DNA of 24,252 bases, from the IMG/VR virus record IMGVR_UViG_3300007345_000270, positions 1 to 24,252 of that record; one strand, given 5' to 3'. This DNA comes from a virus. The position numbers and the translations under genes were made by a program. Shown here piece by piece: positions 256 through 9,243 of this stretch (the stretch's first letter is position 1; each line of letters opens with the position of its first letter). The notes below the pieces were generated by a model, which ran no database searches, was not told the DNA's origin, and was given only the letters and a program-made list of their open reading frames with translations.

Positions 256-785
256 TAGTATTAGACCAACAACAAAAGATTGCAGATTATTGGAAGAATA
301 TATGCAAGAATTACAGCATTCAAAACAACAGACAAAGACACAACGTTATCTACCGACACGCATTTGCAATGGCGGTTCTTGAGAACAGCGTTCTACCTAT
401 GAAGGTTATCGGCAATATGATTGACCGAGACCACGCTACGGTAATCCACGCAAGAAAGAATCATCAGACCAATTACTTGTACGACAAGAAGTATGCTGCT
501 GCATACCTTCAGATAAGTAATAAAATCAAAGATTTTTGTGAGGAATATGACGATAGTCTTATGGTATTGCTCAAGAGTCGAGCGGTCAAGATAACAGATG
601 AGGGATTGCTAAGAGAACTTGAAGAAACTCAAGAACGTAAAATAAAGCGTTTAGAGGACAAATATAAGTCAGAGGCGGAAACCCTCCGCTTGGAGAACAA
701 AGCACTCTCTAAAACGCTTACAAAAGCCTTAGAAAGAAACCATTATCTTCACGAGGAGTTAGCAAGACTAAAGAATATAATATGA
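252..785 (+). CDS. DnaA domain IV-like DNA-binding protein with C-terminal coiled coil
   Basis: A 177-residue protein. Residues about 25-75 resemble the C-terminal DNA-binding domain of the replication initiator DnaA: a helical run (RHAFAMAVLEN), then MKVIGNMIDRDHATVIHARK, which carries the D-H-A-T-V-x-H-A signature (D60 to A67) used by DnaA to read DnaA boxes. There is no AAA+ ATPase domain, so it is not a full initiator. The C-terminal third (about 117-177) is charged and heptad-like (LEETQERKIKRLEDKYK), predicting a coiled coil for self-association. Likely roles are binding phage or host origin sites, or a transcription regulator; this is inference. It overlaps its neighbours on both sides (ATGA at 252; next start at 782), consistent with one operon. 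Confidence 0.7.
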   Translation: MIVLDQQQKIADYWKNICKNYSIQNNRQRHNVIYRHAFAMAVLENSVLPMKVIGNMIDRDHATVIHARKNHQTNYLYDKKYAAAYLQISNKIKDFCEEYDDSLMVLLKSRAVKITDEGLLRELEETQERKIKRLEDKYKSEAETLRLENKALSKTLTKALERNHYLHEELARLKNII

Positions 786-1285
786 TTGAGGTTGCTGTAA
801 CACCTTCTATGTATAGAGCTGCTAAACAGCGTTTCGAGTTCGGAGCGTTGAGGGCTTCGATAACAAAAGGTGGAGGCAACCTTGCCGGTGCTTTGGGTGA
901 ACTTGCATATATAGAGTGGCTAACCAAACAAGGGTATAGGGTTGAGGATACAAGCACCTACGATTATGATATAATAGTCAATGGCTTCAAGGTCGATGTC
1001 AAGACCAAGAGGATAAACAACAAACCGGCTGACAATTATCGTGTTGCTGTTGCCTCAGCAAACACAACTCAGAAGTGCGACTTCTATTTCTTTGCATATT
1101 GCTTGTACAACACGAACAAGGTTTACTTGTCGGGCTATTGTGCGAAGGCTCAATACTTCGAGAAAGCATCTTTCAGAAAGCAAGGTATGGCTGACCCAAA
1201 CGGAGACAATCCTAACTACAAATTCGCTGCGGATTGCTACATTATGAAGCATATAAGCCTAAATAAATTCAAGACTTTTGGTTAA
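782..1285 (+). CDS. PD-(D/E)XK nuclease-like protein
   Basis: A 167-residue protein with the ordered acidic motifs of a PD-(D/E)XK nuclease core: GALGELAYIEWL (E40) in the first helix, YDYDIIV (D63) at the first catalytic strand, and FKVDVKTKR (D72-x-K74) at the second. The N-terminal G-x-x-G-E-x-A helix followed by Y-D-I and V-D-V-K-T is common in phage and R-M-linked nucleases of this fold. The C-terminal half is aromatic-rich (CDFYFFAYCL) and probably completes the beta-sheet. It starts 4 bases before the upstream gene ends. Substrate is unknown; a role in phage recombination, host DNA degradation or structure-specific cleavage is possible. A non-catalytic relative cannot be excluded. Confidence 0.6.
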   Translation: MIEVAVTPSMYRAAKQRFEFGALRASITKGGGNLAGALGELAYIEWLTKQGYRVEDTSTYDYDIIVNGFKVDVKTKRINNKPADNYRVAVASANTTQKCDFYFFAYCLYNTNKVYLSGYCAKAQYFEKASFRKQGMADPNGDNPNYKFAADCYIMKHISLNKFKTFG

Positions 1286-3768: not shown

Positions 3769-4095
3769 ATGACGATTGCAGAACACTTTTACAACCGTAT
3801 GGAAGACATCGAGGAGATGATGATTATGCAAGACCACGAAGGTCTTGACAATTACGGATTATCACTAACGTACAATCCCGATGACGATGAATGGGTATGG
3901 CTATTATCTTGGGGAGGTCCTTCTGAGGAGATAGTTATGATTGGCAGAGGCAACAATGCTAAGTTCAGATATATCTACAAGGATTGGTTTACGAGAAAGG
4001 AGTACGGAATTACCTCACCTATGGAGGAGGTAGCTCTCAAGACATTATTCAATGATTGGTTTAACTGCGAAGAATTGAGAGATGTTTTACAGTAA
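3769..4095 (+). CDS. Hypothetical acidic protein
   Basis: A 108-residue protein, strongly acidic and tryptophan-rich (NPDDDEWVWLLSWGG, FRYIYKDWF, FNDWF). It looks like a small globular alpha/beta protein without membrane segment or catalytic motif. Acidic, tryptophan-rich small phage proteins are sometimes inhibitors or DNA mimics, but nothing here proves it. Its ATG follows AACAACCAACTATT, like the start at 3591. It overlaps the next gene by 14 bases if that gene starts at 4082. Function unknown. Confidence 0.6.
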   Translation: MTIAEHFYNRMEDIEEMMIMQDHEGLDNYGLSLTYNPDDDEWVWLLSWGGPSEEIVMIGRGNNAKFRYIYKDWFTRKEYGITSPMEEVALKTLFNDWFNCEELRDVLQ

Positions 4096-4870
4096 CAAAG
4101 AAATCTTGATGCTCGATGGCATCTACCACGAGGTAGGTCATCTTGAGCAGTTAGCTAAGGAGGACGAGCATTACTACGGATACTTGGGCAAGGCAGCATT
4201 GTCCTCAAGTTCTATCAAGATGCTATTACAATCTCCCAAGACTTACCATTATGTTACTACCTATGGTCAAGACAACAATTCCAAGGCATTGCTTATCGGT
4301 AAGCTGTTTCACTTAGCGGTACTCGAGCCACACAAGATGGACGAGGTAAGAGTCGTACCGGTCAAGAGTAGAAATACTAAGGCATTCAAGGAGGCAGCCG
4401 AAGAAGGAGGAGAGGTTATAACGGAAGCAGAAGAAAGTCAGATTAGAAGATTGCAAGATGCGATGCTTCGCAATGAGAAGGTACTTAGTTATCTCAAAGG
4501 TGCTCAGTTTGAAATCCCTCGAGTAGATGAGCTTGATGGAATGCCATTCCGAGCTAAGGCAGATATCCTTCAAGGAGACCATATCATTGACCTCAAGACA
4601 ACAAGCGACCTCAACGCATTCAAGTATTCAGCATATAAATATGGTTACGATATTCAAGCGTATATTTACTGCAACCTATTTGGAGTGCCACCGGAGAACT
4701 TCCATTTCGTAGCTATCGACAAAGGTAGCCTTGACATCGGAGTGTATCACGTTAGTGAGGAGTTCTATGAGAAGGGCAAGGAGAGGACTCGTAAGGGTAT
4801 AGATTTGTACCGTAAGTTCTTCCAAGAAGGTATTGACTTAGACAGCTACTATATAGAGGAGACGTTATGA
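4082..4870 (+). CDS. RecE-like PD-(D/E)XK exonuclease
   Basis: A 262-residue protein of the phage exonuclease group related to RecE/exodeoxyribonuclease VIII (DUF3799-like). Motifs in order: LSSSSIKMLLQSPKTY (40-55), GKLFHLAVLEP with H77, FEIP with E144, FRAKADI with D161, IIDLKTTS with D170-x-K172, and YDIQAYIY with Q192 and Y194. These match the G-x-x-x-H, E, D, (D/E)-x-K and Q-x-x-x-Y series of lambda-exonuclease-type enzymes that resect double-stranded ends for single-strand annealing. A recognisable annealing partner is not in this window. Family members often begin close to the GIYHE motif, so the ATG at 4109 (residue 10) is a credible alternative start. It overlaps the next gene by 4 bases. 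Confidence 0.75.
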   Translation: MFYSNKEILMLDGIYHEVGHLEQLAKEDEHYYGYLGKAALSSSSIKMLLQSPKTYHYVTTYGQDNNSKALLIGKLFHLAVLEPHKMDEVRVVPVKSRNTKAFKEAAEEGGEVITEAEESQIRRLQDAMLRNEKVLSYLKGAQFEIPRVDELDGMPFRAKADILQGDHIIDLKTTSDLNAFKYSAYKYGYDIQAYIYCNLFGVPPENFHFVAIDKGSLDIGVYHVSEEFYEKGKERTRKGIDLYRKFFQEGIDLDSYYIEETL

Positions 4871-5595
4871 TACCAAAGAAGATTCATCAGATTTACTTTC
4901 CGTGGAATGGTCCTTTCGAGGACATTCCTATTTTTGTTAAGAGCAGAAAGATTATCCTTGACTTGCATCCGGATTGGGAATACAAGTTATGGGGAGAGGA
5001 GGAATCTCTTGAGCTTGTTAGGAAACACGCTCCCGATATGGAGCTATTCTATCTTGGTCTAAGATACAACATACAACGAGTAGACTTCATCAAGTTTCTT
5101 GTTCTCAAGGTACACGGTGGATTCTATGTAGACTTAGACTCGTATTGCATCAAGCCGTTTGATGATTTAATCGGCAAGAGGTTCATACTGCATACGCTTC
5201 AGCATATGCTACCCGACCACAAGGAATTTGTGCAGAATGACTTTATGGCTTCCGAGCCTAACTTCAAGTTTTGGGATATAATCTTCAAGGAGATAGTTAC
5301 CAATTATAACGAGAAGTCGAGCAACCCTATATACGACCAATGGAAAGGTCGATTTGTTTTGCAAACCACCGGTCCCCGCTTTTTATCAAGAGTCGTTAAA
5401 AACGTCCTACCGAGCTACAAGCCACACAAAGTGGTGTGGACAAAGTGGCGTAACAATAATTGGGAACGTTTTGATAGAAACGACTATTACTTCGAATCAT
5501 TTCAAACCGGCTCTTGGCTGTCTGATGTAAGCCCGAGCCTAAAAGCTAATAAATTATTCAACAAAAATGAAAACAGAGAAGATAGCGATAGGTAA
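4867..5595 (+). CDS. GT32-like glycosyltransferase with DXD motif
   Basis: A 242-residue protein that begins MIPKKIHQIYFPW, the typical opening of OCH1/GT32-type transferases (Gly_transf_sug family). Residues 67-100 carry the signature R71-x-D73 and GGFYVDLDSY, where D89-x-D91 is the metal and nucleotide-sugar binding DXD motif. The rest holds the acceptor side of a GT-A fold. In bacteria such enzymes usually build surface glycans; here the gene lies directly before ParB-, TAGT- and TET/JBP-like genes, so a role in glycosylating a modified DNA base is plausible, but this is inference. Start overlaps the exonuclease stop (ATGA) and its last 29 bases overlap the next gene. Acceptor and sugar donor unknown. 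Confidence 0.8.
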   Translation: MIPKKIHQIYFPWNGPFEDIPIFVKSRKIILDLHPDWEYKLWGEEESLELVRKHAPDMELFYLGLRYNIQRVDFIKFLVLKVHGGFYVDLDSYCIKPFDDLIGKRFILHTLQHMLPDHKEFVQNDFMASEPNFKFWDIIFKEIVTNYNEKSSNPIYDQWKGRFVLQTTGPRFLSRVVKNVLPSYKPHKVVWTKWRNNNWERFDRNDYYFESFQTGSWLSDVSPSLKANKLFNKNENREDSDR

Positions 5596-6154
5596 GGTAT
5601 TCTTATCTCCAACGAATCCGAGAGTAATCAAGAACGACAAGTTCAAGAAACTTGTGAATAGCATTAGGGAGTTCCCCGAGATGCTCAAGGTTAGACCTAT
5701 TGTTGTAGATGAGGACAATGTTGTTCTTGGAGGCAATATGCGATTACGTGCTTGTATCGAAGCCGGTCTGAAAGAAGTGCATATTATCAAGGCATCAGAG
5801 TTCAACGATGAGCAGAAGAAAGAGTTTGTCATCAAAGACAACAGCTCATTCGGAGAATGGGATTGGGATATTCTTGCTAACGAATGGGAGATAGAGGACT
5901 TGAATGATTGGGGATTGGATATTCCGGCATCATACTTTGATGATGATGTTGAGCCGGAGTTCGATATGGACGAGCTTGACAAAGAGCTTGATACATACAT
6001 CAACGCAAAGGTCAAGCAGATTACTATGTACTTTGACAACGACCAATACGAGCAAGTTTTAAGCAGTCTACAATCTATTGCAATCAGCGAAGGTCTTGAC
6101 AACAATACCGATGTTGTGTTGCACCTAATCGAAATGTATGAAGCTGAAGAATAA
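5567..6154 (+). CDS. ParB/Srx-like domain protein
   Basis: A 195-residue protein with a ParB-type N-terminal domain: SPTNPRV (14-20), RPIVVDEDNVVLGGNMRLRA (43-62) carrying the G-G-N-x-R-x-R-A nucleotide-binding motif, then AGLKEVHII and FVIKDNSSFGEWDWD. In many phages this domain is fused to a DNA methyltransferase; here no methylase motif (DPPY-like or PCQ) follows. Instead there is an acidic linker (EPEFDMDELDKELD) and a small C-terminal domain (KQITMYFDNDQYEQVLSSL). ParB-like domains bind CTP or act as nucleases, and they recur in phage DNA-modification islands, where they may target enzymes to DNA. It overlaps both neighbours (29 and 17 bases). Confidence 0.75.
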   Translation: MKTEKIAIGKVFLSPTNPRVIKNDKFKKLVNSIREFPEMLKVRPIVVDEDNVVLGGNMRLRACIEAGLKEVHIIKASEFNDEQKKEFVIKDNSSFGEWDWDILANEWEIEDLNDWGLDIPASYFDDDVEPEFDMDELDKELDTYINAKVKQITMYFDNDQYEQVLSSLQSIAISEGLDNNTDVVLHLIEMYEAEE

Positions 6155-6869
6155 ATGGTTGGCTCTTGTTCCAAGCAAGGGCAGACCGGAGGAATTTGCC
6201 AAGAGCTGTAAGCCATTACTTGAGACATTGCCGATTGATTCGGCAGTTTTACTTGAGAAAAGCGACTACGATAAGTACGACTATCCGAACAAGATACTAC
6301 TCGACAAAGAGAACCAAGGCATCGGATATGCTATACACTTTGCTCGGCTATGGGCAGAGGAAAACGGATACGATGTTATCTTCAAGATAGATGATGATGT
6401 TACCAAGATAGGAGCAGTCCACGAGGACTTGGAGACTATCGACCATTACCTACATAAATATGAGGATTGTGCCGGAGTGAGCTTCCCATACTCTTTTGAG
6501 TTTTACGATGTTACCAAGAAAAAGTTGTTCAGTCATATAAATAAACGCTTCCAAACTTGTTATATAATAAAGACTAAATTCTTCAAGACAACGGAAAGGC
6601 TCAAGCAGATAGAGGATTTCTTCTACTATATGATGGCTATTAGAAACAACGGATTTGTGCTGAGGTGTTCAAAACACCCTATGCACACAGCACCGGTTGG
6701 AAGCAATGAGGGAGGAGCGCAATGCTTTGACCGAGCCAAGCTTTACCTTGAGGACATAAAGTTATTTAAGGAAATCGACCCGACAATCAAGGTTATCCAC
6801 AAACCGGATAAGCATTGGAAGTACGAGCCGAAACTAACTGATAAAATGTACAAGGCTAAGCCGATATGA
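6138..6869 (+). CDS. TET-associated-type glycosyltransferase (TAGT-like)
   Basis: A 243-residue GT-A fold glycosyltransferase. It opens with LALVPSKGRPEEF (8-20), the motif of the phage family called TET-associated glycosyltransferases, has KENQGIGYAIHFA (57-69), and the metal-binding acidic triad FKIDDDV (D85-D87). The C-terminal part contains MAIRNNGFVLRC and TAPVGSNEGGAQ, likely acceptor and donor loops. Known relatives sit beside TET/JBP dioxygenases and add sugars to hydroxylated pyrimidines in phage DNA. Here the dioxygenase-like gene follows at once (start 6866, 4-base ATGA overlap), which strongly supports that role. The sugar and exact base are not deducible from sequence. No signal peptide, consistent with cytoplasmic DNA modification. 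Confidence 0.7.
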   Translation: MKLKNKWLALVPSKGRPEEFAKSCKPLLETLPIDSAVLLEKSDYDKYDYPNKILLDKENQGIGYAIHFARLWAEENGYDVIFKIDDDVTKIGAVHEDLETIDHYLHKYEDCAGVSFPYSFEFYDVTKKKLFSHINKRFQTCYIIKTKFFKTTERLKQIEDFFYYMMAIRNNGFVLRCSKHPMHTAPVGSNEGGAQCFDRAKLYLEDIKLFKEIDPTIKVIHKPDKHWKYEPKLTDKMYKAKPI

Positions 6870-7765
6870 AAGAACTACACCTCGAACGTAACGAGATTGA
6901 TGTTGCTAAGTTCAAGAAACGAACAGCAAAACGCTCTGATGTAAGCCAAGTAATCAAAGAAGATGTAATCATCTACTGCGATAACGAACCGGTCATACTA
7001 TACAAGAAGCTCAATACAGATACCTCAGCGCTTCGTTGGGCTGTTAAAAATATCGGCTATTCCACCGGTAAGCGTTCGAGAGGATTGGTCTCTACAAGCG
7101 CTATATTTGGTTACTCGCCACGAATAGCAATGAGGCACGACTACTGTACCGTAACGGCTATGGCTATAAACGAGAAGAAGCAACATTATGTTATCACACA
7201 ATTTGCAAAGGAGCTCGTAGGATATTACAAAGAACACTTTCCCGAGAGATACGAGTTCCATACCAAGCTCGTAGAAGAACGAGTGATGCAAGATTGGACT
7301 ATCGGAGGAAGTCCGTTTACATCGGGTATCGTAAACAAGAACAATCAACTCAAGTACCACTACGATGCCGGTAACTTCAAAGGTGTGCTATCCAATATGG
7401 TTGTATTCAAGAAAGATGTTTCGGGAGGGTATCTTGTAATACCCGAGTTTGACCTCGCACTCGAAGTAGCAGACGAGACCGTAACAATCTTCAACGGACA
7501 AGATATTCTACACGGAGTAAGCACAATAGAATACGACAACGAACACGCATATAGATATTCTGCCGTATATTACTCACTCGAACAAATGTGGAAGTGTGAA
7601 CCTCTCGATGATGAGATAGCAAGAATCCGTAAAATAAAAACCGAGAGAGAACATAAACGTCTCGATGAGGAACACTTAGATACGCTTAGAATAAGAAAGG
7701 AAGAACTACAAGGTGCGAGTATAAACGAGCTACTGAAGAACAAGAAGAAGAATGACAAAAACTGA
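6866..7765 (+). CDS. TET/JBP-like 2-oxoglutarate/Fe(II) DNA-base dioxygenase
   Basis: A 299-residue protein with the double-stranded beta-helix iron site in its C-terminal half: KYHYDAGN gives H165-x-D167-x-x-N170, matching the H-x-D-x-x-N pattern of TET/JBP enzymes; ILHGVST gives the distal H216; and HAYRYSAVYY gives R230 for binding 2-oxoglutarate. Strands between them (GVLSNMVVFKKDVSGGYLVI) fit the fold. TET/JBP enzymes hydroxylate the methyl of 5-methylcytosine or thymine in DNA. The N-terminal ~140 residues are of unknown detail and the last ~55 form a charged helical tail, possibly DNA binding. It follows the TAGT-like gene and overlaps the small terminase gene by 14 bases. Substrate base unproven; no C5-methylase is in the window. 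Confidence 0.75.
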   Translation: MKELHLERNEIDVAKFKKRTAKRSDVSQVIKEDVIIYCDNEPVILYKKLNTDTSALRWAVKNIGYSTGKRSRGLVSTSAIFGYSPRIAMRHDYCTVTAMAINEKKQHYVITQFAKELVGYYKEHFPERYEFHTKLVEERVMQDWTIGGSPFTSGIVNKNNQLKYHYDAGNFKGVLSNMVVFKKDVSGGYLVIPEFDLALEVADETVTIFNGQDILHGVSTIEYDNEHAYRYSAVYYSLEQMWKCEPLDDEIARIRKIKTEREHKRLDEEHLDTLRIRKEELQGASINELLKNKKKNDKN

Positions 7766-8099
7766 CACAACTAAAAAGGCAATGCTTCAAGCACTTGAGA
7801 AAAGTTTAGGTGTTGTTACAACGGCTTGTAAAAGCGTAGGTATCTCAAGAGAAACACACTACAAATGGCTTCGTGAGGACGAGTCCTACAAGGAGTCCGT
7901 AGATGACCTTGTGAATGTAGCTTTGGACTTTGCAGAAACACAACTGCACAAACAAATCAGCAAAGGGAATCCCACGTCTACGATATTCTATCTCAAGACC
8001 AAAGGCAAGAACAGAGGATATATCGAGCGACAAGAGATACAGCACGATGGCGGAGAGGGATTGCGTATAGAGATTATAGATGGCAACGCTTCAGACTAA
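7752..8099 (+). CDS. terS: Terminase small subunit
   Basis: A 115-residue protein directly before the large terminase gene, overlapping it by 20 bases. Residues 12-40 (LQALEKSLGVVTTACKSVGI, then RETHYKWLRED) form a helix-turn-helix of the type found in phage small terminases, followed by a helical oligomerisation region (VDDLVNVALDFAETQLHKQI) and a motif common in this group, NPTSTIFYLKTKGKNRGY. The acidic C-terminal tail (GGEGLRIEIIDGNASD) probably contacts the large subunit or portal. Small terminases form rings that recognise the packaging site on phage DNA. Confidence 0.8.
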   Translation: MTKTDTTKKAMLQALEKSLGVVTTACKSVGISRETHYKWLREDESYKESVDDLVNVALDFAETQLHKQISKGNPTSTIFYLKTKGKNRGYIERQEIQHDGGEGLRIEIIDGNASD

Positions 8100-9243
8100 T
8101 GTAGTATTTAGACATCTCCAAAATAGCGATAGCAGAATTGTTATAGAGCAAGGAGGCACACGTTCCGGCAAGACGTACAATATCCTTATATGGATTCTCA
8201 CCTATTGTCTTGCTCCCGAGAACACCGGTCAAATCATTACTATATGCCGTAAAACCTTTCCGGCTGTTCGGGCAACAGTTATGAGGGACTTCTTTGAGAT
8301 AATAGAACGTGCCGGTGTCTATGACCCGGAGACTCACAACAAGAGTAGCAATGAGTATAGGCTTGGCGGTAATATGATTGAGTTCATATCGCTCGACCAA
8401 CCTCAAAAGGTACGTGGTAGAAAGCGTAACTTACTTTACTTGAACGAAGCTAACGAAGTAGACTTTGAGTCGTGGCAGCAGCTTATTATGAGAACATCGG
8501 GTAAGGTTATCATTGACTACAATCCGTCTATGGAATACCATTGGATATACGACAAGGTAATACCAAGAGATGATGCTGAGTTCTACAAGACAACATACCT
8601 TGATAATCCGTTCCTATCCAAGACGCTTATAGATGAGATTGAAAGACTCAAGCAAACCGATGAGCAGTATTGGCAGATATATGGTCTTGGTGAGCGTGGT
8701 CAAAGCAAGGCAATCATATTCCAACACAACGAGGTAGAGATGATACCCGAAGGAGCATCACTCATCTCAGCGGGTATGGACTTTGGATTTACCAATGACC
8801 CTACGACACTTGTACTTGCATATCGTAAGGACTTAGACTTGTACTTCGAGGAGCTTGTGTATCAGACCGGTTTGACAAACCGAGATATACACCATAAGCT
8901 AAGGACGATTGGCTTTGACAAGAGGACTGAGATATTTGCAGATAGTGCTGAACCCAAGAGTATCAAGGAGCTTCAGTTGTTTGGTTGGAATATCAAGCCA
9001 ACAGCCAAAGGAAGGGATTCAGTAATGGCGGGTATTGATATGCTCAAGAGATATAGACTTAATGTAACTAAATCAAGTATTAACTTGATTAAGGAGCTAA
9101 GAAATTATAAATTCGTAGAGGACATAAATGGTAGAGTTTTGAATAAACCTATTGACGAGAACAACCACGCTATTGATGCAGTACGATACGCAACATACAA
9201 CCGACTCAGTAGACCTAACTACGGAAGGTACGCTGTAAGATAA
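8080..9243 (+). CDS. terL: Terminase large subunit
   Basis: A 387-residue packaging motor and nuclease of the Terminase_3 type. The ATPase domain has Walker A GGTRSGKT (25-32), a RKTFPAVR coupling-type segment (57-64) and Walker B LLYLNEANE (118-126). The RNase H-like nuclease domain has AGMDFGFTNDP (D234), FADSAEPKS (D288) and NNHAIDAVRYA (D366), three acidic metal ligands in the usual order. It packages DNA into the prohead through the portal and cuts concatemers. Length is slightly short for the family (often about 400-450) but all motifs are present. It follows the small subunit and is followed after 15 bases by the chaperone-like gene. Confidence 0.93.
   Translation: MATLQTNVVFRHLQNSDSRIVIEQGGTRSGKTYNILIWILTYCLAPENTGQIITICRKTFPAVRATVMRDFFEIIERAGVYDPETHNKSSNEYRLGGNMIEFISLDQPQKVRGRKRNLLYLNEANEVDFESWQQLIMRTSGKVIIDYNPSMEYHWIYDKVIPRDDAEFYKTTYLDNPFLSKTLIDEIERLKQTDEQYWQIYGLGERGQSKAIIFQHNEVEMIPEGASLISAGMDFGFTNDPTTLVLAYRKDLDLYFEELVYQTGLTNRDIHHKLRTIGFDKRTEIFADSAEPKSIKELQLFGWNIKPTAKGRDSVMAGIDMLKRYRLNVTKSSINLIKELRNYKFVEDINGRVLNKPIDENNHAIDAVRYATYNRLSRPNYGRYAVR

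Follow-up and report, generated by a model that had tools for sequence, protein, structure and literature searches.

A candidate DNA-hypermodification operon with a ParB-TET core and an interchangeable tailoring slot in a marine flavobacterial-type phage

Organization of the locus

The window analysed here, a virus record of 24,252 b from IMG/VR (IMGVR_UViG_3300007345_000270), is a partial genome of a marine flavobacterial-type phage in which four overlapping genes, coding for a GT32-type glycosyltransferase, a ParB-type protein, a TET-associated glycosyltransferase (TAGT) and a TET/JBP-class dioxygenase, precede the terminase genes. The analysis establishes the families of these products, the predicted TET and GT-A (glycosyltransferase A) folds, the catalytic residues, a constant pairing of ParB with TET and, among relatives, the exchange of TAGT for an amino acid:DNA transferase (ADDT). 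We consider it fairly probable that the phage uses TET, TAGT, an optional GT32 and ParB to turn thymine in its own DNA into a glycosylated, base-J-like form. The genes concerned and their neighbours are:

4082-4870, + strand: PDDEXK exonuclease, DUF3799/exonuclease VIII-like (PF12684, 80.8 bits; phrog_412 exonuclease VIII, 2.9e-41)
4867-5595, + strand: GT32-type DXD glycosyltransferase (PF04488 GT32/Gly_transf_sug, 48.3 bits, Pfam cut-off 23; D89-L-D91)
5567-6154, + strand: ParB/Srx-type domain protein (phrog_940/498/620, ~1e-25; PDB ParB, 1.9e-6; GxxRxxA motif retained)
6138-6869, + strand: TAGT, GT-A fold, DDD motif (PF20691, 28.3 bits, Pfam cut-off 27.5; AlphaFold2 model)
6866-7765, + strand: TET/JBP-class Fe(II)/2-oxoglutarate dioxygenase (PF12851 Tet_JBP, 45.7 bits, Pfam cut-off 34.9; fold; HxDxxN...H...R)
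7752-8099, + strand: terminase small subunit with helix-turn-helix (HTH), overlapping the TET gene (phrog_309/phrog_4044, ~2e-8)
8080-9243, + strand: terminase large subunit, TerL (PF04466, PF17288)

The four open reading frames (ORFs) are intact, without internal stops, and each overlaps its neighbour; overlaps of 4-29 nt run continuously from the exonuclease to TerL. The original prediction, made from the sequence alone, of four overlapping genes before the terminase was thus accurate in coordinates, intactness and overlaps, and the motifs and residue numbers that it gave are correct (D89-L-D91 in GT32, GGNMRLRA at 55-62 in ParB, FKIDDDV at 82-88 in TAGT and H165, D167, N170, H216 and R230 in TET). 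In the profile searches that it proposed for the four genes, GT32, TAGT and Tet_JBP exceed the Pfam cut-offs and ParB_N is sub-threshold with strong PHROG and PDB-profile matches, and its reading of the operon as one for DNA hypermodification, with a dioxygenase of the TET/JBP type, is supported by families, catalytic residues and fold. The exonuclease probably has a role in replication or recombination.

A longer contig of the same phage (the L002 record, 31,111 b) spans the window and about 6.9 kb in addition, with a TET that is 100% identical. This contig is nearly complete, since both of its ends fall within what is one tail gene in relatives. GTDB genomes scanned with the window's TET yielded no relative, so that no host is assigned, and Rfam and tRNA searches of the window gave no match.

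The TET/JBP dioxygenase

Across 88 homologues, the conservation of H165, D167, N170, H216 and R230 is 97-100%, with H165, D167, H216 and R230 at 99-100%. In the PDB, a profile of the TET family matched CMD1 and TET2, with a weaker match to CcTet, and the AlphaFold2 model (pLDDT 83) gave 26 first fold matches that are all TET/TET2, CcTet, NgTET1 or CMD1, with the AlkB/FTO-type enzymes ranking well behind. Single-sequence PDB searches with TET and with TAGT gave no useful match, and profile and fold searches were required; NCBIfam added nothing for TET, TAGT or GT32. Membership of a non-TET dioxygenase family such as the protein hydroxylases had been named beforehand as the finding that would overturn the assignment, and the fold matches proved TET-class instead. 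Going by its modelled fold, the product of 6866-7765 is a TET-class dioxygenase and not a protein hydroxylase, and it is predicted to hydroxylate the 5-methyl group of thymine.

An interchangeable slot between ParB and TET

The relatives compared are 80 IMG/VR loci, and the order ParB, slot, TET and terminase is preserved in nearly all of them. For 782 locus pairs with a TET identity of 70-95%, the ParB proteins are at least 59% identical and the slot proteins are less than 35% identical in 59% of the pairs; the slot protein is therefore replaced and does not merely drift. Its usual occupant is a divergent TAGT. For the TAGT of the window, the AlphaFold2 model (pLDDT 90) has GT-A folds as its best PDB matches, D86 of the DDD motif is invariant, and BLAST against named phages returned no match; the TAGT of T6 is likewise reported as a GT-A fold (PMC13216743). 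The enzyme is predicted to make the first sugar transfer onto a hydroxymethyl base.

In L050-L052, with TETs that share 66% identity with that of the window, the place of TAGT in the slot is taken by ADDT together with an FAD oxidoreductase and a P-loop kinase, and in L075 a GATase and ADDT lie downstream of TET. The exchange of TAGT and ADDT is seen again in two further phage lineages. Relatives of the cultured Nonlabens phage P12024L, which itself has TET-TAGT with a TET of a different class from the window's, have, downstream of TET, either TAGT or ADDT with a kinase, and L100 (ADDT and kinase) and L101 (TAGT) have opposite gene content beside TETs that are 99.7% identical. In the mycobacteriophage relatives, a Ploopntkinase3 gene comes after ParB-TET, with TAGT in some and ADDT in others; L114 (ADDT) and L118 (TAGT), probably the phages Reprobate and Acadian respectively, have TETs that are 92% identical. 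Mapped onto the TET tree, the ADDT label switches at least 7 times along branches with support, and a genome search placed ADDT in 11 of 54 TET records; the ADDTs of L095 and L100, missed by Pfam hmmscan, were assigned by this search (84 bits for the L095 gene) and a custom profile. The 5-hydroxymethyluracil (5hmU) kinase and ADDT/aGPT-PPlase, absent from the window, occupy the same slot in L050-L052 and stand beside TET in L075, several of L094-L103 and L114.

Other occupants were noted. The slot of L024 (958-1863), L030, L073 and L081 codes for a protein of about 300 amino acids that resembles another type of glycosyltransferase and that, in L024, has no Pfam or PHROG match. In Pelagibacter phage HTVC112P (L083) and cyanophage MED4-117 (L088), the enzyme found with ParB and TET is not a glycosyltransferase but an O-methyltransferase of the FkbM type, which suggests an O-methylated product. 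In L094-L106, a protein of about 150 amino acids (e.g., L094 6864-7337) follows TET directly, before TAGT or ADDT; it looks PD-(D/E)XK nuclease-like by eye and found no match in Pfam or PADLOC.

Some annotations of relatives were rejected. The "DNA methylase" of MED4-117 carries a ParB domain. The "queuine tRNA-ribosyltransferase" of the mycobacteriophage relatives is wrong, KayaCho (L084) gp2, so labelled, being TET. L084 1802-2377 (KayaCho gp3) and its mycobacteriophage counterparts, labelled terminase small subunit, are Ploopntkinase3 (PF18751, 1.3e-110), and KayaCho gp3 is probably a 5hmU DNA kinase.

Thymine or 5-methylcytosine

The kinases and transferases of the ADDT pathway use 5-hydroxymethyldeoxyuridine (5hmdU) within DNA (PMC6449724). 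Because TAGT and this 5hmU-using set interchange beside near-identical TETs, the simplest reading is that both work on what TET produces and that this is 5hmU, formed from thymine, and the gene exchange, taken with the known ADDT and kinase chemistry, makes thymine its most likely substrate. With thymine as the most likely base, a C5-methylase would be unneeded and is expected to be missing. None had been visible in the window according to the original prediction, and the same holds for the 31-kb L002 contig, where PF00145, a divergent C5-methyltransferase (C5-MT) query and a motif scan found no C5-MT; a gene of the thymidylate-synthase/dCMP-hydroxymethylase family was not found in this contig either. 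The originally proposed check for a C5-methylase or thymidylate-type gene outside the window found neither in the ~6.9 kb that L002 adds. In the 68 TET-bearing records, several of which are complete phage genomes, no PF00145 match lies above the cut-off.

A total absence of C5-MTs from the TET relatives was nevertheless ruled out by short C5-MT-like ORFs (PPC...EN) in three of them, L014 (L139 2168-2827, - strand), L076 and L103 (1883-2536), the last lying directly upstream of a TET. One ORF of 219 amino acids was located through a sub-threshold match, and the motif scan brought the total to three. Such genes are occasional companions of TET and not a constant part of the loci.

Several points weigh against a glycosylated thymine. 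The phage TETs characterised by Burke and colleagues in 2021 are reportedly 5-methylcytosine (5mC) oxidases. Methylases can be overlooked, since PF00145 missed two of the three C5-MT-like ORFs outright and scored the third below its cut-off, and 5mC made by the host is a possible source. Versions of the ADDT and kinase enzymes acting on 5-hydroxymethylcytosine (5hmC) are conceivable. The Pfam score of TAGT is barely above the cut-off, the association of GT32 with TAGT past phage kinship is weak (see below), and GT32 could act on something other than DNA. Furthermore, the TAGT of T6 adds the second sugar (gentiobiose; PMC13216743, PMC13390438) on hydroxymethylcytosine (hmC), not a first sugar on hydroxymethyluracil (hmU).

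Some of these points would suit a 5mC pathway, in which 5mC from a C5-MT of the host, or from an overlooked one of the phage, is converted by TET to 5hmC and then receives one or two sugars from TAGT and GT32, as in the characterised metavirome TET clusters. According to PMC12730594, which cites Burke et al. 2021, the phage TETs described to date act on 5mC and sit with C5-MTs and glycosyltransferases, and the divergent ORFs, including that of L103 next to its TET, would fit such a scheme. We still regard the pathway as unlikely: the near-complete L002 contig and the 68 TET records gave the C5-MT results described above, and the TAGT slot is repeatedly taken by the 5hmU-specific ADDT/kinase set. 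In addition, Leu238 of the window's TET aligns, in the profile alignment, with H1904 of TET2, the histidine that contacts 5mC and the eighth residue past the 2-oxoglutarate arginine. Leu is conserved at this position in the window's TET class, and Arg is found there in most TETs of the other phage class.

GT32 and the position upstream of ParB

The position between the exonuclease and ParB is variable. In the 33 loci with both flanks present, it holds GT32 in 13, is empty in 8, where the exonuclease adjoins ParB, and has other inserts in 12; among those of freshwater relatives are genes of GT4-like and GT2-like type and one for a sugar-type O-methyltransferase (Methyltransf_24). GT32 is linked to the slot protein beyond TET kinship with a partial r of 0.27 (permutation p ~0.014), and BLAST of the window's GT32 against named phages gave two weak matches only. 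GT32 is best described as an optional accessory and a candidate second-sugar enzyme. Since TAGT is constant and GT32 optional, we weakly favour an order in which TAGT acts first and GT32 second, and because GT32 is optional we only infer a branched or two-sugar product. The original prediction had offered such a product as a variation not known to be described, but its novelty is not supported, since phage bases with disaccharides from two glycosyltransferases have long been known (T6 gentiobiose).

We judge it very unlikely that the glycosyltransferases act on targets other than DNA, with GT32, TAGT or both modifying virion proteins or polysaccharide at the host surface while TET works alone or with another partner. 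In its favour, GT32 enzymes of other systems use glycans and glycolipids as substrates, the window's GT32 has counterparts in a minority of the 33 loci, and the TAGT fold is similar to polysaccharide glycosyltransferases. The TAGT gene, on the other side, overlaps ParB and TET, sits between both and exchanges with the DNA-modifying ADDT, the PF20691 family is TET-linked throughout with a T6 member that acts on DNA (PMC13216743), and GT32 overlaps ParB, at the position where relatives have GT4-like, GT2-like and O-methyltransferase genes.

The ParB-type protein

The Pfam score for ParB_N is just below threshold (24.9, cut-off 26.3), although the ParB-like PHROG families give E-values near 1e-25 and solved ParB structures are retrieved from the PDB with a family profile (E 2e-6). 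Solved ParB chains align over residues ~4-97 only of the 195 amino acids, and conservation in the C-terminal part follows a different pattern, particular to this family; the HTH DNA-binding and C-terminal dimerisation domains of chromosomal ParB were not found in the protein. The ParB part is matched by the ParB portion of Type II DNA methyltransferase models (phrog_498, PDLC03229). ParB lies near TET in 74 of the 75 loci of the HxDxxN class that have sufficient upstream sequence and in 1 of 20 for HxDxxD TETs, an association rather than a mechanism, since the two TET classes are largely two clades. The protein is probably a DNA-binding/targeting or clamp partner of TET. A partition gene of a plasmid-like prophage adjoining an unrelated modification operon by chance is scarcely credible, for although the protein matches the N-terminal domains of chromosome and plasmid ParB, its short length and limited alignment, the methyltransferase models, its place beside TET across flavophages and actinophages and a window in which no ParA was seen all speak against it.

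Proposed pathway

For the glycosylated thymine that we favour, TET would hydroxylate the 5-methyl group of thymine in DNA to give 5hmU, with Fe(II), O2 and 2-oxoglutarate, TAGT would attach a sugar to the 5hmU hydroxyl, and GT32, where present, would add a further sugar or tailor the first. The ParB-type protein would act with TET on DNA, probably selecting the sites, and the modification would likely serve to shield the DNA from host nucleases ahead of packaging.

TET/TAGT operons and disaccharide phage bases are already known; what is new is a tailoring slot with interchangeable content beside an invariant ParB-TET core, together with the proposed thymine assignment. Most informative of all is that sugar and amino-acid modules have replaced one another in nature while ParB and TET stayed fixed. 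Tentatively, the arrangement may represent a base-J-type platform, in which ParB and a thymine-oxidising TET write 5hmU at sites chosen by ParB and the exchange of neighbouring genes (sugar, sugar with O-methyl or second sugar, amino acid) yields many thymine modifications. If true, this class of phage TETs would be thymine hydroxylases, as base J synthesis requires, in bacterial viruses without a C5-methylase, and the chemistry past 5hmU would be a plug-in choice. The near-identical TETs with TAGT or ADDT alongside provide a direct test set for the substrate of phage TETs, ParB-domain proteins recurring beside DNA-modification genes would gain a candidate role, and the enzymes are a potential source for site-specific thymine tagging.

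Comparison with known systems

Phage TET/JBP-TAGT operons share with the window Tet_JBP and TAGT in one operon and the same catalytic residues and fold; the characterised ones (Iyer et al. 2013; Burke et al. 2021) reportedly oxidise 5mC made by a linked C5-MT, whereas here none is linked and the context favours thymine. Relatives of the window's TET carry in the same slot the ADDT, 5hmU-kinase-like and FAD oxidoreductase genes of thymidine hypermodification (M6, ViI, phiW-14), in whose place the window has glycosyltransferases. M6-type phages make 5hmdU at the nucleotide level, whereas in the phage of the window it would arise in DNA via TET. The five-gene thymidine-hypermodification system of Tonitrus includes ParB-TET-aGPT-PPlase2-kinase (PMC11955845).

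The proposed chemistry, thymine oxidised in DNA and a sugar then placed on 5hmU, resembles that of kinetoplastid base J (JBP1/2 and the J glucosyltransferase), although base J synthesis proceeds without ParB, GT32 or a phage packaging context. In T2/T6 (gentiobiosyl-hmC) and RB69 (arabinobiose), a phage pyrimidine likewise receives its disaccharide from two glycosyltransferases, one of which is a TAGT in T6, but hmC is made as a nucleotide without TET and the partners have a GT-B fold and are not GT32 enzymes. The CmoX systems for carboxymethylcytosine differ in using carboxy-S-adenosylmethionine (Cx-SAM) and a C5-MT homologue without TET; their loci often have a ParBc-domain protein accompanying the modification genes, in a role that is unexplained (PMC12783734).

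A nuclease-like gene of the window

Apart from the operon, the window encodes at 782-1285 (+ strand) a PD-(D/E)XK nuclease-like protein (VDVKTK) that matches the Type II restriction model REase_II of PADLOC (3.9e-5), perhaps a nuclease that leaves the modified DNA of the phage uncut. A homologue (39%) occupies the accessory position upstream of ParB in L017-L019 and L025.

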